The notes under the pieces are model-generated. The model saw only the letters and a program-made list of their open reading frames with translations, did not search any database and was not told the DNA's origin. DNA of 24,148 nt from a virus. The number at the start of each line of letters is the position of its first letter. Position 1 is the stretch's first letter. The stretch lies in IMG/VR virus record IMGVR_UViG_3300032069_000052, positions 1 to 24,148 of that record; one strand, given 5' to 3'. The position numbers and the translations under genes are program-made. Shown piece after piece: positions 3,905 to 21,262 of this stretch.

Positions 3905-4161
3905 TTTATTTTGCGCACGGAGCGAATACAGCCCTTGGGAATGGAGAGAAGATCCTGAAAGTTGTCATCCTCACTTAACCCGTGAGCCAGGACCATGTAT
4001 TTCTTGCTTTCTCGGACTAAATACCCCACGCTTTTACACACAATCCCCCGTTGTGCCATCTCTCGGATATCTTGATCACATTTCCAACCGTTTTTTGAAT
4101 AGGCATCATTCCAAATTATCTCTACGGGGGGGAATTTGGTGAACGAATGAGTGGTTTTCAT
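3901..4161 (-). CDS. conserved-type small phage protein, 86 aa
   Basis: A short protein with the pattern VEIIWNDAYSKNGW, then CKSVGYLVRESKKYMVLAHG, then IPKGCIRSVRKI at the end. From memory this is the layout of a widespread family of small phage proteins of unknown function encoded near terminase genes (W-DA...GW, SVG-LV-E, IP-G-I motifs). It is probably a compact beta-rich domain. It overlaps terS by ATGA at its end and the upstream gene by ATGA at its start, so its output is tied to packaging genes. No catalytic residues are recognised; a DNA-packaging or terminase accessory role is inference from position only. Confidence 0.75.
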   Translation of the reverse strand: MKTTHSFTKFPPVEIIWNDAYSKNGWKCDQDIREMAQRGIVCKSVGYLVRESKKYMVLAHGLSEDDNFQDLLSIPKGCIRSVRKIK

Positions 4162-9280: not shown

Positions 9281-9739
9281 ATGAAAAAATATTTTTCCAT
9301 CTTTTTGGGATTTCTTCTTTTGTCCTTTCCGGCCTATCTCCTATTTGCCAATACCCATGTTGCTTTTCTCGCGGCGGATATTTCCGTCAATGCCGGCACT
9401 ACTAAGGTCAACGGGACAGATTTCACTTCAGCCGAGGTCTATATAGCAAATCATGGCCTGAAAGAAGTTAGTGCGATCAAGATTACATTCACTAGAGCAG
9501 CCGGATCTTCTTCTACGGTTGATTTTGAATTTCAGGTTTCATTGGATGGCGGAACTAGTTGGTCAACTGCTTATTATGTCAAAGTACAATCTACTACAGA
9601 CGAAACTGCTGTTTCCAATGTTGTTCGCAAAATCCAATTAGTTAATATTTACGGCATTACTCATATCCGGCTTTATCGTGTTGTCAATAACGATTCGGGT
9701 AATAACCTAACGGCGGTCAACGCCTCAGTCAGTTTCTAA
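9281..9739 (+). CDS. Sec-exported small beta protein, 152 aa
   Basis: MKKYF plus a hydrophobic core (about 7-22) and LLFA before N24 form a clear signal peptide with likely cleavage after residue 23. The mature part of about 129 residues is Ser/Thr/Val-rich with alternating strands (EVYIANHGLKEVSAIKITFT, VDFEFQVSLDGGTSW, ITHIRLYRVVNN), suggesting a beta-sandwich. It lacks a lipobox, so it would be periplasmic or secreted. Spacing (16 bases) ties it to the next exported protein. A capsid-decoration protein would fit the location and fold, but a Sec signal argues against cytoplasmic head assembly unless the prediction is misleading. AGGGGGG (9269-9275) is its ribosome site and overlaps the end of the terminator's T-run. 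Confidence 0.75.
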   Translation: MKKYFSIFLGFLLLSFPAYLLFANTHVAFLAADISVNAGTTKVNGTDFTSAEVYIANHGLKEVSAIKITFTRAAGSSSTVDFEFQVSLDGGTSWSTAYYVKVQSTTDETAVSNVVRKIQLVNIYGITHIRLYRVVNNDSGNNLTAVNASVSF

Positions 9740-9755: not shown

Positions 9756-12506
9756 TTGAAGAAAATCCTAGCGATTTCTAGTATTCTACTTTTCTTTTTA
9801 CTATCCCCATTTTTGGCCTTCGCCACCCAATACTACGTTTCTAAGACTGATGGCAGCAATGGGTATAACGGTCTCTATCCTACCTACCAGGGTGGGGTAA
9901 ACGGCCCGTGGCTGACCCTCTCTTACGCTATGACGAACGGCTGGGGGGCGGATGCGATTGTAAGTGTTTGTACCGATGGAAAATTTCGGGAGACCGTAAC
10001 AATCCCGAGTTCGGGCACGGCGGGTCACTACAAAACACTCAACACCTATGGTACGGGGGCAAAGCCTCAAATTCTTGGTTCAACTCAGCTCACCGGCTGG
10101 ACCCCAGATACCGGCCATTATGTCTGTACCTCTTCATTGACCGTGGCGCTTTACTTTATCAACACCAACGGCACGGTCAAGTGGGGCCATAAAAAGGCGA
10201 GTAAGGCTGCCTGTATTGCCGAATATGACTGGTACGGAAACGGGACAAACATCTGGTGTTTCGTTCCTGCTGGTGGGGAGCAAGACCCCGATAGCCGATA
10301 CATAAGTATTGAGGGTGCGACCAGGGATTATTGCATCAGCAATGCTAAGACATATATCACGATTGATGGGTTCGAAACAGCCTATGCGGTTCAGGCTGGA
10401 ATTTGGTTTGACGGCACCACCGCCAACTACGGCATCATTAAAAACTGCCTCTCTCATCATATTGGAACATACCCGACTGGATATAATGCGGGTGTCGGAG
10501 ACTGCATAAGGTTCACAGCAAGTTATGGTTTAATCCAATCCAGCACTTTGCATGACGGATCTAATCATGGGATTTATGTCCATGAGAAAAGCGGGCAAAA
10601 TTGTGTCAATAATATCATAGAGGGCCTTCACGTTTACGATTGCTACCACGTTGGCATCGACGTTTTGATTTATTTCACCGGCAGGCTCGGAAGTGGTCAT
10701 ATTGTTCGCTATAATTACGTCTACTGTACGGATGATTGGGACAGTGTTTCCGGCGTTGATATGGGAGGCATAAGTCTCCACAACCAATACACAGCCAGCA
10801 ATTTAGATGCCTGCCAGGTCTATTACAACGCGATCTGGAACATGATGGGGAAGGGGATCGCAGTCGAACACAACGTGACCAACACCATCATCGAAAATAA
10901 CACTTGTTACAAATCAAATCCGAATTGCGGGGCAATTTATGCCCCTGGAATTTACGTCGCTCTCAGTGCTACTTCCGGAACAGTTCTTAAAAATAATGTT
11001 TCGGTCGACTGGAAAGACGAGTGCCTGTTTGTGGGAGCCCGTGCAAATGTGTCTGGCTGTGATAACAACTGTTGGTATCAAAGTGCGGGCGGGACGGCTG
11101 TTTATACCTACACGGATATTAGCCCAAACTCTTTCCATTATGACGATTTTACTCTTTGGAAAAGTAAAACCGGCTGGGGCACTCCGTCTGGATACGCGGA
11201 TGCCGCCAGCAAGTGGGAAGATCCGAAATTCGTTTCAACGACTGACTATCATCTTCAAGCAAGTTCTCCCTGTATAGATACTGGCATTGCTGTTGGCCTT
11301 ACTCAAGACATTGAAGGGTATTCCGTACCCACGGGCGGAGCGCCTGACATGGGGGCATACGAGTATCAAGGAACCGTTGAAATCAACATAACGGACGGGG
11401 TGAATAATATTGCTGATGGTGGGACATTTGATTTCGGTTCAAGGGTTGTTGCTTCAAATACAGATCAGGAATTCACCATCCAAAACCTCGGCACTGCCGA
11501 CCTAACGCTAAGCGGTTCTCCGATCATTACTATCACAGGGACCAATGCGGATCAGTTCAGTGTCCAGGTGCAGCCGACGACTCCGATTACTGGTGGTAAC
11601 CATGTTCACTTCACTTTGAGATTCACTCCGACCACGGCCGGGGCGAAGGTTGCGGCGATCTCGATTGCCAATAACGACGCAGACGAAAACCCCTATGATA
11701 TTAACCTTACGGGCACGGGTATTTCAGCCGCCGAGATCAATGTCAAACAAAACACTACCAACATTCCAGATGGCGAAAGCTATGCTTTTGGAAACCAGCG
11801 TTTAAGCACAAACACAGATGTTGTTTTCACCATAGAAAATCTAGGTGGATCTGATCTAACTTTAAGTGGAAGTCCGATCATAATCCTCGGTGGAGCCGAC
11901 GCTTCACAGTTTAGTGTTCAGGCCCAGCCTACCAGCCCTATCACTCCGGGAAATTACACCACTTTTACCATTCGGTTTACCCCAACTTCGATAGGCGATA
12001 AAACCGCAACCACTACGATTACCAACAATGACTCTGATGAGGGAACATACGATCTTACCTTCTTCGGAACCGGAATAGCCCCCGAAATCAATATTAAACA
12101 AGGGACTGACAACATTACATCTGGCGGGACGTATGCTTTCGGGACGCATGCTGTGAATACAAATACCGATGTTGTTTTTACTATTGAAAATATTGGAACC
12201 GATTATCTGACATTAAGTGGCACTCCGATCATAGTTATAACTGGTTCGGGGGCGGCTCATTATAGTGTTGAAGCACAGCCGACAACTCCTGTTTCTGCAC
12301 CAAAAGGGAGCACAACCTTTACGATTCGGTTTAAGCCAACTTCCACGGGGTTGAAATCTGCATCTATATCCATAGCCAACGATGATACTGACGAAAACCC
12401 ATATGTCATTAATTTTACAGGAACGGGGGAAGCCGATACTTCAAGTCTTATTTTTCCGGCCAGAACTCCTGAGGTTACTCCTGCAATCACGCCGGAAATA
12501 AAATAG
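9756..12506 (+). CDS. exported beta-helix protein with choice-of-anchor Q and D-type domains, 916 aa
   Basis: It starts with TTG at 9756, five to six bases after a strong AAGGAG; no ATG is near. Residues 1-23 are a textbook signal peptide ending AFA before T24. About 25-500 look like a right-handed parallel beta-helix (asparagine-ladder stretches such as NNIIEGLHVYDC, YNYVYCTDD and IENNTCYKS), as in polysaccharide-acting or surface proteins. About 500-540 carry the SPCIDTG...DIEG...GAPDMGAYEYQG signature of choice-of-anchor Q domains. Three repeats of about 117 residues start near 542, 660 and 777 (EIN, AFG or DFG, TIENLG, LSGSPI, FSVQ, FTPT, INLTGTG) and read as Ig-like choice-of-anchor D/ASH domains. 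Phage tailspikes often use beta-helices, but a Sec signal and anchor domains are typical of bacterial surface proteins, suggesting acquisition from a host. No catalytic residues are assigned. Confidence 0.85.
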   Translation: MKKILAISSILLFFLLSPFLAFATQYYVSKTDGSNGYNGLYPTYQGGVNGPWLTLSYAMTNGWGADAIVSVCTDGKFRETVTIPSSGTAGHYKTLNTYGTGAKPQILGSTQLTGWTPDTGHYVCTSSLTVALYFINTNGTVKWGHKKASKAACIAEYDWYGNGTNIWCFVPAGGEQDPDSRYISIEGATRDYCISNAKTYITIDGFETAYAVQAGIWFDGTTANYGIIKNCLSHHIGTYPTGYNAGVGDCIRFTASYGLIQSSTLHDGSNHGIYVHEKSGQNCVNNIIEGLHVYDCYHVGIDVLIYFTGRLGSGHIVRYNYVYCTDDWDSVSGVDMGGISLHNQYTASNLDACQVYYNAIWNMMGKGIAVEHNVTNTIIENNTCYKSNPNCGAIYAPGIYVALSATSGTVLKNNVSVDWKDECLFVGARANVSGCDNNCWYQSAGGTAVYTYTDISPNSFHYDDFTLWKSKTGWGTPSGYADAASKWEDPKFVSTTDYHLQASSPCIDTGIAVGLTQDIEGYSVPTGGAPDMGAYEYQGTVEINITDGVNNIADGGTFDFGSRVVASNTDQEFTIQNLGTADLTLSGSPIITITGTNADQFSVQVQPTTPITGGNHVHFTLRFTPTTAGAKVAAISIANNDADENPYDINLTGTGISAAEINVKQNTTNIPDGESYAFGNQRLSTNTDVVFTIENLGGSDLTLSGSPIIILGGADASQFSVQAQPTSPITPGNYTTFTIRFTPTSIGDKTATTTITNNDSDEGTYDLTFFGTGIAPEINIKQGTDNITSGGTYAFGTHAVNTNTDVVFTIENIGTDYLTLSGTPIIVITGSGAAHYSVEAQPTTPVSAPKGSTTFTIRFKPTSTGLKSASISIANDDTDENPYVINFTGTGEADTSSLIFPARTPEVTPAITPEIK
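11379..12431 (+). repeat. three tandem Ig-like coding repeats (about 350 bp each)
   Basis: Units begin near 11379, 11733 and 12084. They share protein signatures EIN-K/T, Y/FDFG or AFG, FTI-NLG, LSGSPI, FSVQ-QPT-PI, FT-RF-PT and NLTGTG, with partial DNA similarity around the LSGSPI and FT-RF segments. The spacing is regular (354 and 351 bp). They are diverged tandem duplications within one gene rather than recent copies. Confidence 0.75.
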
Positions 12507-13555: not shown

Positions 13556-15397
13556 ATGAAAAGAAAAAGAGGGCTCACACCTACCGACAAATTCAATTTC
13601 GGCGGTGGTCTGGTTACGATGATGGCTAAGACCAGGCTTGCTCCTAACCAACTTGTTGCCGCAAAGAATGTCAATATTTATGTTGACGGCGAGATCGAGG
13701 TTCGCGGTGGGTGTGCGAAAGTTTCAACCGTGGCTTTCGGGACAGAGATTGATCGTTTTATTCACTTCAAGACAGATGTCTACGACAAGATCGTGGCTTA
13801 TGGTGGAACATATATTAAGCGATTAGACAAGGGCACGCCTGATGTTTGGACACAACTTGACGGGTCCATGCCCGATACAGAGGAATTGCGAAGTTTGGAT
13901 ATAGGTCAAAACAAATTGTATATAGGGGCAACAGATAGCATCGGGGTTAGAAAGTATGTCCGTAATCAATCTGCCCTATGGAAGGCCGGGATCACAAAAC
14001 CCGCCGCCGCTATTACCGCAGCAGATGGTGGGGCAGGAGTCCTGAGTGGTACTTATTACTGGTACTGGACCTATTACAATTCTCTGACGGGCGAAGAAAG
14101 CGACCCCTCCCCCATCTCGGGAGTTCTCGTGGTCACGGACAAACAGGTGACGTTGAGTAGTTTCGTGGCCAGTACGGATCCACAGATTGACAAGATTAGG
14201 ATATATCGAAACCCCACGGGTGTTTCTACCTGGTACTATGTTGGGCAAAAGACCAACGACGTCAATAACTTTACGGACAATGTGGCCGATAATAACCTAG
14301 GCCCAGAGATTAGTTTTAAAAATGGCGAACCTCCCAAGGCCGCAATTCTCAGGTACCATCTTAACCGTATGTTTTATGTCAATGCGGACTATCCGAGTCG
14401 GCTCTATTGGTCCGAGGCGCTGTTGCCCGGATCGGTTCATATCAACAGTTGGCAAGGCATTGAAGACAGGGATGGTGGAAAAATCCTTGCACTCGGTTCC
14501 AGTTATGACAATATCATAGTCTATAAAAATACGGGCGTCTTCTGCTTTTCCTTTGATGTCGGTAATCCCGACAATAGTTCCTATATTCCCCTCACAAGCG
14601 AATACGGAATCGTGGCTCCGATGTCGGTGGCTCATGTTGGTGAAGATGAAATTTTTCTATCCTCGGAAGGGCTGAAGCTTATCACCAATGGCGGAACAAA
14701 GATTGACGAAATAGAGATTCCCATTATTGTTCCAGAGGGCATGAAAAATATCAATCCCATCACCAGCATTTTCAGAGAGTGCAAACAGGATGCAATATCA
14801 AAGGCCGTCGGCATCTATTATGAAGCCAAAAATCAATATCATATCTCGGTTCCCTATTACTCGAATAGCAATAATGACTTAACCCTGGTTTGGCACAAGG
14901 ACGTAAATGCCTTTACCATTCACGAAGATTTTAACGTGAAGGCTACGGGACTCTACCGCGAATATGATAACCGGTTGCTCTACCGAAGCCATAATGATCA
15001 ATACATTTATCAACATGACATTGGGTTTACCGATGATAACGTGGATATTACCTTCAAATTGCAGACGGGATGGAATACCCTCGATGGAATCAATGACCGG
15101 AAAAATATTCGTCTGATGTTCCCGACTGTTTATGGGGCAGACGGCGTGGTTCTAAACTATAAGATTTTCAAGGATTTTGAAATAGATGGCCCGGTAGTTT
15201 CATTGACTCACCAGGGAGCTTCCTATTGGGGGTATGCTCATTGGGGACAGAACTATTGGGGGGCTGCCGGGGAAGTGACATATCGAAAACCAACCTGTGT
15301 GAAGGGTCGCATCTTCTCAACGCAATTTTATGGCACGGTCAATAAGAAAGTCGGACTTGCCGATTATCAGTTTTTCTACCAGCCAAAGAGTTTGTAA
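13556..15397 (+). CDS. tail nozzle / packaged-DNA stabilisation protein (P22 gp10-like)
   Basis: The N-terminus, FNFGGGLVTMMAKTRLAPNQLVAAKNVNIYVDGEIEVRGG, is a familiar start of podovirus DNA-stabilisation and nozzle proteins. Much of the rest (613 residues) is beta-rich with repeated aromatic and Asp/Gly turns, compatible with a beta-propeller around the tail channel. Near residues 165-230 a GTYYWYWTYYNSLTGEESDPSP segment with KIRIYR resembles a fibronectin-type insert. Its partner is the adaptor gene just upstream. The ATG at 13556 is used; the frame also allows a TTG at 13550 overlapping the adaptor stop. The C-terminal end (ASYWGYAHWGQNYWGAAG) is Trp/Tyr-rich. It terminates in TAATG with the next gene. 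Confidence 0.8.
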   Translation: MKRKRGLTPTDKFNFGGGLVTMMAKTRLAPNQLVAAKNVNIYVDGEIEVRGGCAKVSTVAFGTEIDRFIHFKTDVYDKIVAYGGTYIKRLDKGTPDVWTQLDGSMPDTEELRSLDIGQNKLYIGATDSIGVRKYVRNQSALWKAGITKPAAAITAADGGAGVLSGTYYWYWTYYNSLTGEESDPSPISGVLVVTDKQVTLSSFVASTDPQIDKIRIYRNPTGVSTWYYVGQKTNDVNNFTDNVADNNLGPEISFKNGEPPKAAILRYHLNRMFYVNADYPSRLYWSEALLPGSVHINSWQGIEDRDGGKILALGSSYDNIIVYKNTGVFCFSFDVGNPDNSSYIPLTSEYGIVAPMSVAHVGEDEIFLSSEGLKLITNGGTKIDEIEIPIIVPEGMKNINPITSIFRECKQDAISKAVGIYYEAKNQYHISVPYYSNSNNDLTLVWHKDVNAFTIHEDFNVKATGLYREYDNRLLYRSHNDQYIYQHDIGFTDDNVDITFKLQTGWNTLDGINDRKNIRLMFPTVYGADGVVLNYKIFKDFEIDGPVVSLTHQGASYWGYAHWGQNYWGAAGEVTYRKPTCVKGRIFSTQFYGTVNKKVGLADYQFFYQPKSL

Positions 15398-15906
15398 TGA
15401 AGATACCGTTTGTTTTGGGAGAAGTTAAAAGCGATAAGAACTTTGAACAAGTAAACTCTGCCCTTGAACAAGCAAACTCTGCCCTTGAAGGCAAAGAACC
15501 CGCTATTACGCCCGGAGGGCCAGACCAATATTTGACAGGAGATAAAAGTTGGCGGACGGTTTGGCCCGTAGGATCTGTTTTTATCGCTGTCGTAGCGACA
15601 GATCCGGCAACACTCTTGGGGTTTGGAACGTGGAGCCGAATTGCTCAGGGTAGAGTCCTCATCGGACAGGATGGCGCAGATACTGATTTTGACGTTGCCG
15701 AAGAAACCGGAGGTGCGAAAACAATAAATCTTGCCCACACGCACGATGATCACACTCAGGTGGAGGCTAGGCAGGGAACAAGCACCGGGAAGGTTTTGAC
15801 CGGCATAGGGGCAGACAATCATACTCTCCATGCGTCAAACTTAAGTGCGACTCAGAGTATCATGAATCCATATTTCGTGGTTTATATCTGGAAAAGAACA
15901 GCATGA
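15397..15906 (+). CDS. tail-tip / fibre protein with gp10 C-terminal-type domain, 169 aa
   Basis: Residues 16-31 contain two identical-spaced heptads (EQVNSAL EQANSAL), likely a short trimeric coiled coil. Residues about 57-169 match the pattern of the T4 gp10/short-fibre C-terminal domain: PVGSVFIAV, TLLGFGTWSRIAQGRVLIG, the DTDFDVAEETGGAKT loop, a His cluster HTHDDH (114-119) and the ending NPYFVVYIWKRT. In related fibres such His pairs bind metal at the trimer axis. It would sit at the distal tail as a receptor-facing or needle-like element. The start is shared with the nozzle stop (TAATG). Being short, it may be an accessory tip rather than the main fibre, which is probably the gene at 18831. 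Confidence 0.8.
   Translation: MKIPFVLGEVKSDKNFEQVNSALEQANSALEGKEPAITPGGPDQYLTGDKSWRTVWPVGSVFIAVVATDPATLLGFGTWSRIAQGRVLIGQDGADTDFDVAEETGGAKTINLAHTHDDHTQVEARQGTSTGKVLTGIGADNHTLHASNLSATQSIMNPYFVVYIWKRTA
15448..15489 (+). repeat. 21-bp tandem duplication encoding two heptads
   Basis: CAAGTAAACTCTGCCCTTGAA (split as 15448-15468) is repeated at 15469-15489 with one T/C difference. The unit is exactly seven codons, one coiled-coil heptad, so unit number would change coil length in whole turns. Confidence 0.85.
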
Positions 15907-15912
15907 TAAAAA

Positions 15913-16173
15913 ATGAGCAAGATGATCCCCCGCTTAAAAGGAGTGTTCTATCTCTGCTTAGGGATATGTACCGATATACTTATTTGTCTGTACTACCGAG
16001 CCATCTCAAACCGCATTTTCTGGCTGGCCGTCTTAATGTCAATTTTGGTTACAATCGTTCCCTTTTTGGTTACAGAGCGGGGAATAATGACTAAATGCAA
16101 GTGGATTTTCGCCTGGTATGCTATAGGCGCAGGCATAGGAACCATGCTCGGCATGATGATTAAACTTCAATGA
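15913..16173 (+). CDS. three-segment membrane protein upstream of transglycosylase (holin candidate)
   Basis: The 86-residue product has hydrophobic stretches at about 10-27 (GVFYLCLGICTDILICLY), 34-53 (RIFWLAVLMSILVTIVPFLV) and 62-84 (KWIFAWYAIGAGIGTMLGMMI), separated by basic residues. Length and topology fit small phage holins. Its stop overlaps the transglycosylase ATG (ATGA), an arrangement typical of holin-endolysin pairs. The ribosome site before the ATG at 15913 is weak, so expression may depend on coupling from the tail-tip stop seven bases upstream. An overlapping frame from ATG 15903 is less protein-like. No named holin family is recognised; an antiholin or other membrane accessory is possible. 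Confidence 0.65.
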   Translation: MSKMIPRLKGVFYLCLGICTDILICLYYRAISNRIFWLAVLMSILVTIVPFLVTERGIMTKCKWIFAWYAIGAGIGTMLGMMIKLQ

Positions 16174-16688
16174 CCAACGAATTTGACATGATTTTTGAAA
16201 GGGCAGGTATTGATTATCATGTTAAACCCTTGCTACTCAAGGCCATTGCACTTCGAGAATCCAACCTAGATCCCAAGGCCTATCGTTATGAACCCGATTA
16301 TTGGGAAAACTATTTGAAACACCTCGACTCCTGGAAAGACAAAGAGCCAACGATAGTAGCCGCGTCCTATGGACTTATGCAGATACTTTTTACAACCGCA
16401 AGTGGACTTGGCTTTGTGGGAACGGCTGAAGAACTTTACGATCCTGCTGTCAATATTGATCTGGGAGCCAAATTGCTGAAACAGTTACTGGACAAAGTAT
16501 TGTCGAGAAAGCAATATGAAACATTTCCGTGGCTTTCTCCCCTGTCAATAGTACTTGCACAATATAACGGTGGAGGCTGGGAAAATCCTGACATAGAAGG
16601 CAATCTGAGAAATCAGAAATATGTAGATTGTATTTGGACAGAATGGGAAAAATTAAAAACAGAAGAAAAAGAACCATCTCTTGCTTGA
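16170..16688 (+). CDS. lytic transglycosylase (SLT-type), probable endolysin or virion muralytic enzyme
   Basis: The 172-residue protein shows the goose-lysozyme/SLT motifs in order: catalytic glutamate E30 in ALRESNLDPKAY, SYGLMQIL (66-73), the LYDPAVNIDLGAKLL helix (about 89-103) and AQYNGGG (130-136). It would cleave the MurNAc-GlcNAc bond of peptidoglycan with formation of anhydro-MurNAc. There is no signal peptide, so release needs a holin, and holin-like genes lie on both sides. It overlaps the upstream membrane gene by ATGA. A virion-borne role in DNA entry is the alternative, but the setting favours lysis. Confidence 0.88.
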   Translation: MTNEFDMIFERAGIDYHVKPLLLKAIALRESNLDPKAYRYEPDYWENYLKHLDSWKDKEPTIVAASYGLMQILFTTASGLGFVGTAEELYDPAVNIDLGAKLLKQLLDKVLSRKQYETFPWLSPLSIVLAQYNGGGWENPDIEGNLRNQKYVDCIWTEWEKLKTEEKEPSLA

Positions 16689-16741: not shown

Positions 16742-16999
16742 ATGAGTTTCGATCCTAACATTGTCGCGGCCATTCTTGCACTAATCGCAGGACCGATTGT
16801 GTCCTTCGTGGTGCAGGCGATTAAATCCTGGTTGAAATGGGACGGTGCGAAAGCGCTTGGCCTTTCCGCCGGGATTGCCTTTGGTGCTACTGCCGTTTAT
16901 CTGTTCCAGTCGCACGCTTTTAGCCTGATCGGTTTTGTCGGTTATGGCCTTTTGGTCTTCATCGAAAGCACCGGCGTTTATAAGTTCAAGAGTCAATAA
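16742..16999 (+). CDS. holin-like membrane protein, 85 aa
   Basis: Hydrophobic stretches at about 7-27, 37-56 and 59-76, a short basic loop (KSWLKWDGAK) and a charged C-terminus (YKFKSQ) give a small two- or three-pass membrane protein of normal holin size. The ATG follows AAAAGGGGGTTACT. It is separated from the transglycosylase by 53 bases and followed by the protease gene after 57 bases containing two GCTTATAA boxes. With a second candidate at 15913 and a third at 18634, this region has more holin-like genes than usual; one may be an antiholin. Confidence 0.7.
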   Translation: MSFDPNIVAAILALIAGPIVSFVVQAIKSWLKWDGAKALGLSAGIAFGATAVYLFQSHAFSLIGFVGYGLLVFIESTGVYKFKSQ

Positions 17000-17056: not shown

Positions 17057-17866
17057 ATGAAAAGAGTATTCTGTGTTTTTCTCGCCTTGCTGATGATGGG
17101 GGGGGCCCTGCTTGCAGACGTTTCTCCCAAAACCATGAAGGAAATTAGGCAAGCGACCTGTGCGATTGTCAGTTATTTTGAAATAAACGAGACAAAACCG
17201 ATGCAAGGACGGCAGGGAGAATCAGGGAAAAATCATCCATTTATCACGGTTCCGTTAGGCCGAATACAAGACAGTCCTAACTATCTGGTGGCCTACGTCG
17301 GCGCGGGGACGTTATTGAAAGATAACTTTATCCTTACCGTGCGGCACATGATTATCTCGGAAAGCGGAGAAGACGCGACTAATATCTATGCCATATTTGA
17401 AGGCATAGATCATCCAATCGGATGCAATGTTGTTGCCGTCAGCAAGGGAGAAAAATTTTGTGATGATTATGCGATTTTGAAGCCACGGGAAAATATACCC
17501 AGGAAGGGTTTGAAAATCGCCAAACATGAATTCAAATATGGTGAATGGATCGTCTTCAATGGCTCCGCGGGAGGCCTGGCTTTTTTTGCCAGAGTGGGAC
17601 ATGCCATTGATTTACAGAGTTATTTTTACAGGGATGATAATACCAACACCCTCCACCTGGGAACTTTTGAAGCCTTCCCCTTCTTGACGGTTTATCCCGG
17701 TGGCCCCGGTGATTCGGGGGGCTCAATTAAAAACGAGGACGGAGAGATTATCGGGCTCATGTACTGTGGAATTGCGGTGTACGAGGAAGAATATGTATTT
17801 TCAAATCCCCTGTCAATGTTAAAGGAGTTTCTGTTTAAGTCCGGCTTAGAGGAATTGCTGGAATGA
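17057..17866 (+). CDS. secreted trypsin-like serine protease (S1 fold), 269 aa
   Basis: Residues 1-20 are a signal peptide (MKRVF, hydrophobic core, LLA before D21). The catalytic triad is readable: H97 in FILTVRHM (compare LTAAHC), D137 in CDDYAIL, and S220 in GGPGDSGGSI, the oxyanion-hole signature. GAGTLLKDNFILTV and GEIIGLMYCGIAVY match the flanking strands of the S1 barrel. Cysteines at 35, 123, 135 and 237 could pair outside the cytoplasm. The product is thus expected to act in the periplasm or outside. Its ATGA overlap with the next gene links it to a GWxTD lipoprotein. The ribosome leader GCAAAAGGGGAAAG is identical to that of the gene at 23315. A secreted S1 protease is unusual in a phage lysis region; the substrate is unknown. 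Confidence 0.85.
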   Translation: MKRVFCVFLALLMMGGALLADVSPKTMKEIRQATCAIVSYFEINETKPMQGRQGESGKNHPFITVPLGRIQDSPNYLVAYVGAGTLLKDNFILTVRHMIISESGEDATNIYAIFEGIDHPIGCNVVAVSKGEKFCDDYAILKPRENIPRKGLKIAKHEFKYGEWIVFNGSAGGLAFFARVGHAIDLQSYFYRDDNTNTLHLGTFEAFPFLTVYPGGPGDSGGSIKNEDGEIIGLMYCGIAVYEEEYVFSNPLSMLKEFLFKSGLEELLE

Positions 17867-18519
17867 CTAAAAAACTTGGTCATTTGACTAAAATATTTGG
17901 TTTGTTTTTGACCATCACAAGTCTCTATTCTTGCGTAACATATAACCTGGAAAAGAAACTTAACACTAAGCTTCGGGAGTGGTATTCCATCCATTCCATC
18001 CTAATGCAAACCCGCTTGCCCAACGGCCAGATCGAAGCCGTTTATTTCTTGCACCTACCGGAAAATATGCAGATTGCATACATACGTATATTCTGGAAAA
18101 TCAGGTTTACCTTACTGGATCAGGACAAGGAATTTGAAGCACGGGTTGGGTGGGCGAATCGAATATTTGGGGGAGAGAAAGCCGGAAAGGGATACAGCAC
18201 TGATCGTGGCCAACTTTTTCTGCTGTGCGGTGCCCCATTTCAGGTTTCCTTTTTTGATTCCAGGGGAGAGGAAGAAGGTTCAATTTTTACGGGCAGCATT
18301 GAGCTTGAGCCCGGAACCATCATGGCCTGGTACTACTTCTATGCGGGGCAATTCATAGGGTTTTATTTTGAATCCGACGGTATGGGGGGATGGAGAACCA
18401 GCCAAAATTTTAGATTTCCCCATTCGGAAAATCAGGCATATTTCCTGGCTATTTGTCAATGGGAACTTGCCCCAACGGAAGAAGGATGGATGCTCTGGCA
18501 ACAGGAGGTTACAAAATGA
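17863..18519 (+). CDS. GWxTD-domain lipoprotein, 218 aa
   Basis: The N-terminus MTKKLGHLTK plus a hydrophobic core ends in a lipobox L21-Y22-S23-C24, so the mature protein would be lipidated at C24. Residues about 91-125 (FEARVGWANRIFGGEKAGKGYSTDRGQLFLLCGAP) match the GWxTD domain core, with GYSTDRG (110-116) for the usual GW-TDRG. The C-terminal part is aromatic-rich (AWYYFYAGQFIGFYF, WEL near the end). GWxTD proteins are known from outer-membrane bacteria but their activity is not established. The start overlaps the protease stop and the end overlaps the next ATG (ATGA both times). An outer-membrane partner or target guide for the protease is an inference from coupling. Confidence 0.78.
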   Translation: MTKKLGHLTKIFGLFLTITSLYSCVTYNLEKKLNTKLREWYSIHSILMQTRLPNGQIEAVYFLHLPENMQIAYIRIFWKIRFTLLDQDKEFEARVGWANRIFGGEKAGKGYSTDRGQLFLLCGAPFQVSFFDSRGEEEGSIFTGSIELEPGTIMAWYYFYAGQFIGFYFESDGMGGWRTSQNFRFPHSENQAYFLAICQWELAPTEEGWMLWQQEVTK

Positions 18520-18632
18520 GAATCAAATTGAGATTTCCCTGGAACTCAATTTTGAAAGTTCTGGGATTCGTGTCATCGCTGGTGACCATTTTGCGGCAAC
18601 TATTTGACACCAAAGACAAAAAGGACAAATAG
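18516..18632 (+). CDS. 38-aa membrane peptide
   Basis: The ATG overlaps the lipoprotein stop (ATGA). The frame encodes a basic start (MRIKLRFPW), one hydrophobic segment (SILKVLGFVSSLVTILRQLF, about 11-30) and a charged tail (DTKDKKDK). Position between a lipoprotein and a holin-like gene, coupling, and composition support a real micro-gene. It could be an inner-membrane lysis accessory or regulator. It is too short for a conventional i-spanin, and no periplasmic coiled coil is present. Confidence 0.55.
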   Translation: MRIKLRFPWNSILKVLGFVSSLVTILRQLFDTKDKKDK

Positions 18633-18633
18633 A

Positions 18634-18819
18634 ATGACCACCAAAGAACTATATGATCTTTTCAAAAATTTTCGGGATAACGATTTTTGTCACCTACAAA
18701 AGAAGGTCGATTGGATTTTTTATCTATTGATTACAACCCTTGTCGGCCTAGTTGTTGATCTTCTACTGAAATTCGGCGTGGCGCAGAATTTGGCTAAGAC
18801 CGTCCTTAAAATCTTTTAG
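18634..18819 (+). CDS. XhlA/holin-like membrane protein, 61 aa
   Basis: An amphipathic N-terminal part (ELYDLFKNFRDNDFCHLQKKVDW) is followed by a single membrane segment (IFYLLITTLVGLVVDLLL, about 28-46) and a short tail. The H-L-KKV-W--YLLI pattern resembles haemolysin XhlA-like and small phage holin-associated proteins. The ATG at 18634 has AAGGA eight to nine bases upstream and lies one base past the TAG of the preceding micro-gene; an in-frame TTG at 18604 is unnecessary. It closes the lysis-like cassette, which then gives way to the tail fibre. Confidence 0.65.
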   Translation: MTTKELYDLFKNFRDNDFCHLQKKVDWIFYLLITTLVGLVVDLLLKFGVAQNLAKTVLKIF

Positions 18820-18830
18820 GGAGAAACAAG

Positions 18831-20183
18831 ATGCTTTTAACGATACCGAATACCTTTCAAAACGGAACTGGCGCGGGCAATATCATTGACGCGACCCAGA
18901 TGAATAGCAACTTTAGCGCGGTTGTGACGGTCCTCAACGGCAACCTTGAAAAGAACAATGTCAAGACCGGATCTTCAATATGCCTGGATGATACCGTTAT
19001 GACAATTTCGGCGGCCTGGGTCTTTTCGACCAACCCTGTTTTTAACGCCGGGGCAATTGCCGATAATTACTTGACTTCCAATATTCCCAAAAAAGATGCG
19101 GCCAACGTCTTTGCGGCCCAGCAAGAGTTTGCGGCGGGTATAAACCTGGATAGGCAGCAAGCTCAAAATTTCGTCTGTGAAAAGGTTGCCAGTCTTCCCG
19201 GTGGAACATCCCAAGATATTGGGCGTATTGTCTATTGCACGGGGGATAACAAGTTTTATGGTTGGAATGGAACGGCCTGGCAACAGATTGACTATACGGG
19301 CGGATACACGGGCGGGGCGGTTCGTGGCTATTCGGCAACCCTGGACCTGGATAACGGGAACAGTTCAAAACTCTGGTTTAAAACCGAAGGGGCAAGCCCC
19401 ACCGTCAAGATTGCCCTGATGGGACTTATGTTCCCAAAGCGGTTTTATACGGAACTTGGGTATCACAATCATGGTATTACCGATGGCGGACATGCCCACA
19501 ATGCCGCCGGAGCTCACAACCATCACGTTGATCTTGGTTCGCATACTCATTCGGGAACCTTCGGGTCTTCAAGTCATACCCACAATGTAAGCGGAACTAC
19601 GGGAAGCGAATCTTCTCATACCCATGGAGGCGGAACATATAGTACCGGAACATCTGCTACTCACGTCCATCATAGCGTACAAATAGGAAGTGATGAAACA
19701 GGGGCATCGGGGGCACATAGCCATACTAACTTTGTTGGTTCTTCCGGCGCGGGTTCAGCCCACAGTCATACCTTTTCAGATACCTCCGACGGACCCTCGG
19801 CGACAGCTTCAGTTAGTAGTACCGACCTTGGTGGGGTTTACTCAGCCTATACCAATCCGGGGCCAACGGATTCAGCGATTACGGGCATTACCATCAACGC
19901 TGCCGGAATTAATGCCGGGACACTTAGCGCATCTCAAAAACAATATGCCGATAGTCTAACCGTTTCAATTGACGGAACAGATGTTACGGCGGCCATTCTT
20001 TCGGCAACGGGTTGGTCACAGATCGGCGACGGTACGGCCACTCATGATTTCCATGTCAGTGGTACAGGGGAGATGAACGCTTCGGCATGGAAAAGCTATG
20101 CGGCGGGATTCCATGTTATCGAAATTACAGAGCCGACAACCGATAGGGGTTGCCGGATCATGATTCACATAGAGACTTTTTAA
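18831..20183 (+). CDS. tail fibre with His-x-His metal-binding needle, 450 aa
   Basis: The N-terminus (IPNTFQNGTGAGNIIDATQMNSNFSAVVTVLNGNL) has the form used by phage fibres to join the tail. A middle segment with IGRIVYCTGDNKFYGWNGTAWQQID is a common fibre module. Residues about 212-313 hold nine HxH motifs (HNH, HAH, HNH, HTH three times, HVH, HSH twice) spaced by Gly/Ser/Thr. This is the pattern of the T4 gp37 needle, where such histidines from three chains bind iron along the axis. The C-terminus (DRGCRIMIHIETF) would form the tip. It is the likely receptor-binding fibre. Its start follows GGGAG and the lysis-like cassette lies upstream, so tail genes are split around lysis genes. Confidence 0.88.
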   Translation: MLLTIPNTFQNGTGAGNIIDATQMNSNFSAVVTVLNGNLEKNNVKTGSSICLDDTVMTISAAWVFSTNPVFNAGAIADNYLTSNIPKKDAANVFAAQQEFAAGINLDRQQAQNFVCEKVASLPGGTSQDIGRIVYCTGDNKFYGWNGTAWQQIDYTGGYTGGAVRGYSATLDLDNGNSSKLWFKTEGASPTVKIALMGLMFPKRFYTELGYHNHGITDGGHAHNAAGAHNHHVDLGSHTHSGTFGSSSHTHNVSGTTGSESSHTHGGGTYSTGTSATHVHHSVQIGSDETGASGAHSHTNFVGSSGAGSAHSHTFSDTSDGPSATASVSSTDLGGVYSAYTNPGPTDSAITGITINAAGINAGTLSASQKQYADSLTVSIDGTDVTAAILSATGWSQIGDGTATHDFHVSGTGEMNASAWKSYAAGFHVIEITEPTTDRGCRIMIHIETF

Positions 20184-20194
20184 GGAGGATAAAA

Positions 20195-20887
20195 ATGGCG
20201 ACAAATCCATATTACAGTATGTCAAGTTATCCTACCACGGGAGGCTGGGAAACCATGAGTGGTGGGGGCGGCGGTGGTGGCGGGTCTGCCTTCGATCCAG
20301 TAGGTGCAGCTATCGGTGGCGGCCTTAGTTTACTCGGGGGTATTTTCGCGGGAATAGCAAAAGGCAAAAGGCGTAAAGAAAATAAAAAGGCGTATGAGCA
20401 AGCCCAAAAGGATTACCAAGCCAGGGCCGGACAGTTATTCCCGGAGCTTTCTAAAGAATCGTTTATGTACAAAAGCCCCGAGTTGAATAACGCCATTCAA
20501 GGAGCACTAGCCTATCGCCTCAAGAATATGTTTGCCGATTGGGGGATGCCCGAGGGTAGAACCGGGGGCATGGATCAGCTCAATCAACTTTTTGCCAACC
20601 TGATGCCACAACAGCAACCCCAGGCTCAGATTCAACCTGGCGGTGGTTTTAATCCCATGCAGATGCAGGGAATGGGCCAGGGAATGGGCCAGGGAATGGG
20701 CCAAAGAATGGGCGGTCCCATGATGGGGATGGGCGGTCGCGGTGGCGGACAAGGCGGATGGTACGGGGATTTTTCGGGTCCGGGAATGGGCGGTCCCATG
20801 ATGGGGATGGACGGTCGCGGTGGCGGACAAGGCGGATGGTACGGGGATTTTTCGGGTCCGGGAATGGGCGGATCTCGGATGATGTAA
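20195..20887 (+). CDS. Gly/Met-rich putative ejection protein with glycine-zipper segment, 230 aa
   Basis: The ATG follows a perfect AAGGAGG; the open frame upstream to 20150 lies inside the fibre gene. Residues about 22-29 are a glycine run. About 36-54 (GAAIGGGLSLLGGIFAGIA) form a glycine-zipper hydrophobic segment followed by the basic KGKRRKE. A helical middle (about 60-140) and a Gln/Met/Gly-rich C-terminus with two 26-residue repeats (GPMMGM-GRGGGQGGWYGDFSGPGMG) follow. Small virion proteins with a zipper segment preceding DNA-ejection proteins are usual in podoviruses, where they help form the envelope-spanning conduit. No homologue can be named. The low-complexity tail may be disordered or self-associating. 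Confidence 0.65.
   Translation: MATNPYYSMSSYPTTGGWETMSGGGGGGGGSAFDPVGAAIGGGLSLLGGIFAGIAKGKRRKENKKAYEQAQKDYQARAGQLFPELSKESFMYKSPELNNAIQGALAYRLKNMFADWGMPEGRTGGMDQLNQLFANLMPQQQPQAQIQPGGGFNPMQMQGMGQGMGQGMGQRMGGPMMGMGGRGGGQGGWYGDFSGPGMGGPMMGMDGRGGGQGGWYGDFSGPGMGGSRMM
20672..20863 (+). repeat. 12-bp and 78-bp tandem repeats in the ejection-type gene
   Basis: Three 12-bp units (AATGGGCCAGGG type, 20672-20707, peptide MGQG or MGQR) lead into two 78-bp units (20708-20785 and 20786-20863). The 78-bp units differ by a single G/A base, which changes GGR to DGR; a partial third unit starts at 20864. Near identity implies recent duplication or ongoing homogenisation. Confidence 0.9.
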
Positions 20888-20899
20888 GGAGAAATTAAA

Positions 20900-21262
20900 G
20901 TGGTGCAAAAAAATCTATACAAACCATATCCTAATGTTCCGGCCAATCCTTATATTCCAGGAATTCAGGCAAACAATCAAGGGATAGGTCAGGGATGGGG
21001 ACAACAAAACTCTTCTGGCGCTATACCTAATATAAATCTGCAATTTCCAGTCCATCATGAATTTCAGGGAATTCAACGTAACCAGATGCCGAATTATCAG
21101 ATGCCAAACATGGGAATGGGGCAAGGCATGGGAATGAGATCACCCTATGCGGGTATGTTCCCAGGGCGGGGAATGGGGATGCAGGGCGGAATGGGACAAG
21201 GCGGATGGTACGGGGATTTCATGCGGCAACCGAATCCCGGTTACGGTGTTCCCCTGTACTAA
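20900..21262 (+). CDS. Met/Gln/Pro-rich virion-type protein, 120 aa
   Basis: The start is GTG at 20900 (a second GTG follows at once), eight bases after AAGGAG. The sequence is low in charge and rich in Asn, Gln, Pro, Gly and Met, with MGMGQGMGM-type runs and a C-terminal GQGGWYGDF block. That block repeats 26 bases found exactly twice in the upstream gene (third copy at 21194-21219), showing shared origin or recombination between the two. It lacks membrane segments and is probably flexible. Position inside the ejection-protein run suggests a virion component. No family is recognised. Confidence 0.6.
   Translation: MVQKNLYKPYPNVPANPYIPGIQANNQGIGQGWGQQNSSGAIPNINLQFPVHHEFQGIQRNQMPNYQMPNMGMGQGMGMRSPYAGMFPGRGMGMQGGMGQGGWYGDFMRQPNPGYGVPLY

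Follow-up and report, generated by a model that had tools for sequence, protein, structure and literature searches.

Why does a phage carry a secreted serine protease joined directly to a GWxTD-domain lipoprotein, and do the two proteins act together? The question is raised by IMGVR_UViG_3300032069_000052, a linear IMG/VR record of 24,148 bases that we analysed over its whole length (the window) and that represents a fragment of an incomplete genome. Profile matches identify its terminase (phrog_38, 2.3e-61), portal (phrog_156, 1.5e-21) and major capsid protein (phrog_14242, 1.7e-42), along with a stabilisation or internal-virion-type protein. Compared with named phages (Arthrobacter, Microbacterium, Cellulosimicrobium and spring-water phages), capsid and portal show only 20-29% identity. 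The source of the window is an unusual, divergent tailed phage from the environment.

The two genes lie in a late block encoded on the + strand. Its upstream border is a Gp10_C baseplate/tail protein (15397..15906; Pfam PF21939, E 3.1e-21). It is followed by a small membrane protein with three hydrophobic segments (15913..16173), a possible holin or antiholin whose match to DUF7940, the family of a Sulfitobacter phage holin, is very weak (E 0.12). Next come an SLT lytic transglycosylase, the likely endolysin (16170..16688; Pfam PF01464, E 3.4e-14), and a holin-like membrane protein with two hydrophobic segments (16742..16999; phrog_1299 holin, E 0.0025). The protease (17057..17866, 269 aa) and the lipoprotein (17863..18519, 218 aa) then overlap by the four nucleotides ATGA. 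Beyond them we find a 38-aa ORF with one hydrophobic stretch (18516..18632), joined by another ATGA to the stop codon of the lipoprotein, and a 61-aa one-segment membrane protein (18634..18819) that is XhlA-like by eye only (phrog_1193 hemolysin, E 0.29). The downstream border is a tail-fibre-like protein (18831..20183), recognised by its composition, with no confident domain. The initial annotation had given the outer limits of the pair, the overlap and the position in a lysis cassette, and on these points it was right.

HtrA and GWxTD proteins are bacterial families, which raises the suspicion that host genes entered a mis-assembled or contaminated viral contig. One of the three IMG/VR contigs known to hold a GWxTD gene (L002) fits such a case: its end resembles Bacteroidota host DNA beside a phage-type integrase, and we rejected it as a viral GWxTD gene. 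In the window, however, both ORFs are flanked by phage genes that share their strand, and their start sites are like those of other phage genes. In codon usage, too, the two genes conform to the phage (0.146 against a null of 0.148 +/- 0.018, and 0.128 against 0.168 +/- 0.021), which makes a late insertion or an assembly chimera unlikely. Moreover, a related lipoprotein is found inside an independent phage contig, described below. The artefact is thus largely refuted and we give it very little probability: both ORFs are real, phage-adapted genes.

The protease begins with a Sec signal peptide (hydrophobic segment 4-22) and carries H97, D137 and S220 in the correct triad order, with GDSGG at 218-222. 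When the protein is aligned with seven HtrA/DegP proteases (A4), the three catalytic residues are invariant together with G218, G221 and G222; this supports the signal-peptide S1 protease proposed at the outset, its triad falling on that of HtrA. Within GDSGG, HtrA has N at D219; the first G is also given as varying, although G218 is listed as invariant in A4. Pfam Trypsin_2 matches over its full profile (1-144 of 144, E 2.7e-4), with 22.1 bits against a gathering score of 27.6. A search of 148 Bacteroidota genomes with the protease returned mostly DegP-type matches of about 500 aa, the best reaching 5.6e-5. In the PDB it matches SplA and DegQ (3pv4_A), both weakly, and its PADLOC matches are due to the trypsin domain alone. 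On the double beta-barrel fold expected of an S1 protease the AlphaFold2 model, with a pLDDT of 32, says nothing either way.

Bacterial HtrA, DegP and DegQ share the catalytic core of the phage protein, about 200 residues aligning with the triad. They differ in that the phage protease has around half their length and ends directly after the protease core, and therefore has no PDZ domain. Judged by its alignment, it is HtrA-like in the core; we do not class it as an HtrA, since the C-terminal PDZ is missing.

The second protein is a candidate lipoprotein with the lipobox LYSC (C24) and, at positions 110-116, the string GYSTDRG, where Y replaces W as it does in several cellular GWxTD members. 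It passes the NCBIfam model TIGR04514 (32.4 bits, cut-off 28, E 1e-7) and falls below the gathering score of Pfam PF20094 (21.9 bits against 26.9). The invariant GWxTD columns W78, N99, G110, D114, G116, G123, W156, F167 and F169 are kept, and conservation of the domain columns extends as far as the W-x-Y and F-x-F strands. A search of the window finds the motif pattern a single time, and 100 shuffles do not contain it. By the NCBI model and the alignment, the protein is a divergent member of the GWxTD family, as the initial annotation had suggested. No hydrophobic or transmembrane segment follows the lipobox. The residue at +2 after the cysteine is valine, which under the E. coli +2 rule fits outer-membrane sorting, and we predict that the lipoprotein is probably held at the outer membrane.

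GWxTD proteins of cells (TIGR04514/PF20094) occur in Bacteroidota, Calditrichota and Marinisomatota; when Marinisomatota and Bacteroidota genomes were searched, about half encoded such proteins. The cellular forms have the core domain columns in common with the phage protein; most of the matching proteins, though, are about 400-500 aa long and match over the core only. Our literature search found no paper mentioning GWxTD, and a sequence search of the PDB gave no GWxTD relative.

Of the fold of the lipoprotein, the structure model gives a moderate view only (pLDDT 64). Foldseek returned no match at E 0.001 or better, and in VIA-align 2 no family stood out, which is not evidence for a new fold. 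The model resembles OsmE weakly (4dm5_A; Z 3.5, rmsd 1.7 over 48 residues; Foldseek E 0.35). Together with the sequence logic G...lG.P...W.Y...F.F and a sensible aligned register in a profile comparison (hhalign), this might suggest that the lipoprotein interferes with assembly of the host outer membrane by mimicking a host GWxTD protein or a BamE/OsmE-like lipoprotein. Yet the profile comparison falls short of significance (E 0.14, probability 0.4%), the Z score lies within the stated noise range of the tool, and the PDB offers no GWxTD relative by sequence; we hold such mimicry to be improbable. A separate match to Bacteroidota BamH (9hjm_H, Z 2.5) was rejected: the published description of BamH contains no GWxTD resemblance, and a bacterial GWxTD protein did not match BamH in the PDB.

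Are such lipoproteins found in other phages? Single-protein scans of IMG/VR and tblastn against 50,697 phage records gave no relative of either the lipoprotein or the protease. With the strict motif pattern, IMG/VR yielded one other contig, L002; a pattern derived from the profile yielded L002 and a second contig, L046. (Among the capsid-related loci discussed below, a GFITDRG string in L078 was disregarded, as it overlaps the capsid ORF.) Within the collections searched, GWxTD proteins look very rare in viruses.

The contig L046 (IMGVR_UViG_3300033149_003380, phage G191) is a 45 kb phage contig with a terminase, of phrog_2 where the window has phrog_38. Its lipoprotein of 208 aa is 33% identical to that of the window over 209 columns (pairwise E 4e-28) and scores 26.8 bits with PF20094, next to a gathering score of 26.9. 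The two proteins are similar in size and share the lipobox, an N-terminus of the form CVT[YF]NLxKKL...EW[YF]xIHxILM and a complete GWxTD domain. Since the phage forms are compact lipoproteins of 208-218 aa with their own N-terminus, and the cellular matches are core-only in mostly longer proteins, the two form a compact phage GWxTD lipoprotein subfamily. The genomic settings differ. In L046 the gene has a Dam-like methyltransferase gene on one side and the terminase on the other, with no protease beside it, and an XhlA-like gene (phrog_1193, 2.4e-4) lies about 9 kb away, so that the role of the lipoprotein need not be lysis. The same phage has, near an XhlA-like gene, an ORF (L130:15622-16593) with papain-like spacing seen by eye only (QGSSLSC, HH, NSYG) and no Pfam or PDB match.

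Secreted single-domain S1 proteases, for their part, were looked at in context in three further, independent phage settings. The first is L133 (IMGVR_UViG_3300003267_000105), a phage contig that encodes DNA polymerase A and an HtrA-like protease (Trypsin_2, 103 bits) resembling that of the window in its signal peptide, single domain and absence of PDZ. The surroundings differ: DUF5675 and small genes lie close by in place of a recognised holin, and the contig has no GWxTD gene. On the - strand of this contig, L133:14368-14877 encodes a CsgG-domain lipoprotein (PF03783, 48 bits).

The second setting is that of cultured Sulfitobacter phages. In pCB2047-A the order is GH108 endolysin (phrog_315, 3e-57), DUF7940 holin (phrog_1356, 4e-17), a gene of unknown function, XhlA (PF10779, 9.5e-12) and a signal-peptide Trypsin_2 protease (55.9 bits; phrog_9683 'protease', 1.9e-77), annotated as 'putative serine protease/peptidase'. 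Near-identical copies of the protease are carried by pCB2047-C and NYA-2014a. A secreted single-domain trypsin-like protease, the type also found in the window, stands here directly downstream of the endolysin, holin and XhlA genes. Unlike the window, these phages have a GH108 endolysin and no GWxTD lipoprotein beside the protease, and the proteases are too divergent for tblastn to connect them in either direction. By gene order, pCB2047-A is the nearest precedent for the window, and a protease in a phage lysis cassette is not new. The deposited start of the Sulfitobacter protease (L134:3938-4705) overlaps the XhlA ORF; a start at 4037 of the locus gives a clean signal peptide, and the annotation is probably too long.

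In the third setting, RL2RES, a DegP-like gene lies near the capsid gene, showing that the position of such proteases varies among phages. Only the Sulfitobacter phages provide an unambiguous lysis-cassette setting among the three. Hits in the phage collection such as MT835589.1 (L137, 'UNVERIFIED') are bacterial contigs and were left out of the phage proteases; in MT835589.1 the DNA is bacterial and of high GC content, encodes a MenD-like protein and an HtrA that has a PDZ domain, and is probably contamination.

These contexts bear directly on whether the two neighbours form a unit. The initial annotation had taken the ATGA overlap to suggest that the two proteins are coupled in function and made in a fixed ratio. 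Four-nucleotide overlaps, however, occur at four of the 22 junctions of the window (13550, 16170, 17863 and 18516), and the one between protease and lipoprotein is of an ordinary type. In independent genomes the two genes were not met side by side: the 45 kb of L046 contain no trypsin-like match, L133 has its protease alone, and GWxTD is absent from the annotated surroundings of the pCB2047-A protease. Neither gene was found in 80 viral loci whose capsid gene is related, 35 of which reach far enough past the capsid to show it; in a control run, the protease HMM used there detected the proteases of L133, the Sulfitobacter phages and RL2RES. A survey beyond the window hence finds each gene singly elsewhere and the pair only here; by the standard that the initial annotation had set, this largely refutes the pair, though not the two genes individually, and the proposed coupling is not supported. 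Given the separate occurrences in L046 and L133 and the frequency of such overlaps, we favour, from these comparisons, two independent genes that would be neighbours by chance; with so few examples, a joint function in the window phage is still conceivable.

What form could a joint function take? When phages lyse Gram-negative hosts, a third function directed against the outer membrane is normally required, provided by spanins or disruptins (PMC9239132). In the window we recognised no spanin. Scans for lipoboxes and membrane segments revealed no small o-spanin nested in or beside an i-spanin, as in Rz/Rz1; the lipoprotein, with 218 aa, a globular domain and a protease for a neighbour, does not match a two-component spanin, nor, having no C-terminal transmembrane segment, a u-spanin. 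The protease as effector and the lipoprotein as outer-membrane anchor or adaptor could then jointly disrupt the outer membrane in place of Rz/Rz1. Several observations agree with this: the two genes adjoin with a 4-nt overlap inside the lysis cassette, a secreted protease occupies the corresponding position in a cultured Sulfitobacter phage, the GWxTD protein of phage G191 is the only convincing lipoprotein found there, and a simple pattern scan of the window gave no other convincing lipobox ORF. They are countered by the L046 relative, which has no protease match on its contig and lies apart from the XhlA-like gene, by the proteases of L133 and pCB2047-A, which occur without the lipoprotein, and by the commonness of the overlap in the window. 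In addition, spanins may be encoded in the part of the genome that this fragment does not cover, and the lipobox scan was a simple one. We consider a spanin substitute of this kind unlikely, and it is a shade more doubtful that a phage without spanins would break the outer membrane at lysis by these two proteins, in a proteolytic third step distinct from both spanins and disruptins.

Another explanation looks to infection rather than to release. Phage outer-membrane lipoproteins that jam receptors are established, of the type of T5 Llp acting on FhuA (PMC9586334). The window lipoprotein could block or alter an outer-membrane receptor in this way, while the protease strips surface proteins, resulting in superinfection exclusion or receptor masking. 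Besides the precedent itself, the lipoprotein gene is two small ORFs upstream of the fibre-like gene, and in L046 its counterpart lies outside the lysis cassette. Against this, no sequence link to Llp has come to light, and the presumed late operon position suits lysis better than early exclusion as far as the protease is concerned. T5 Llp is also much smaller than the GWxTD lipoprotein. Overall we assign the explanation a low but real probability; for the lipoprotein, masking of the Llp kind is a live alternative.

The account that we tentatively favour, at somewhat under even confidence, is that of two independently acquired accessory genes, both directed at the envelope, which a divergent tailed phage with a probably diderm host carries in its late (lysis) operon. 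Once exported by Sec, the protease would adopt in the periplasm the fold of a single-domain HtrA-like serine protease. As it has no PDZ domain, regulation of the DegP type is not expected. Its targets are most likely envelope proteins, cleaved late in infection, which may help the outer envelope to yield once holin and transglycosylase have acted. The lipoprotein would be a host-type GWxTD protein cut down to its domain; it would be lipidated and probably anchored at the outer membrane. There it would most likely act alone, binding a host outer-membrane complex and altering receptor display or membrane integrity.

What is new here is the phage GWxTD lipoprotein subfamily, along with a further secreted protease in a lysis region. 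The secreted HtrA-like proteases of the window and the Sulfitobacter phages offer a way into a possible proteolytic step in phage lysis, and a phage protein drawn from this host family gives a handle on the role of GWxTD at the outer membrane.

The window encodes two further proteins with apparent Sec signal peptides (9281-9739 and 9756-12506), placed between capsid and connector genes, an odd site for exported proteins; one of them has a C-terminal choice-of-anchor D / HYDIN-ASH Ig-like series and a choice-of-anchor Q match. In the late region, tandem low-complexity proteins rich in Gly, Met and Gln, with GQGGWYGDFSGPGMGG repeats, occupy positions 20150-21262.
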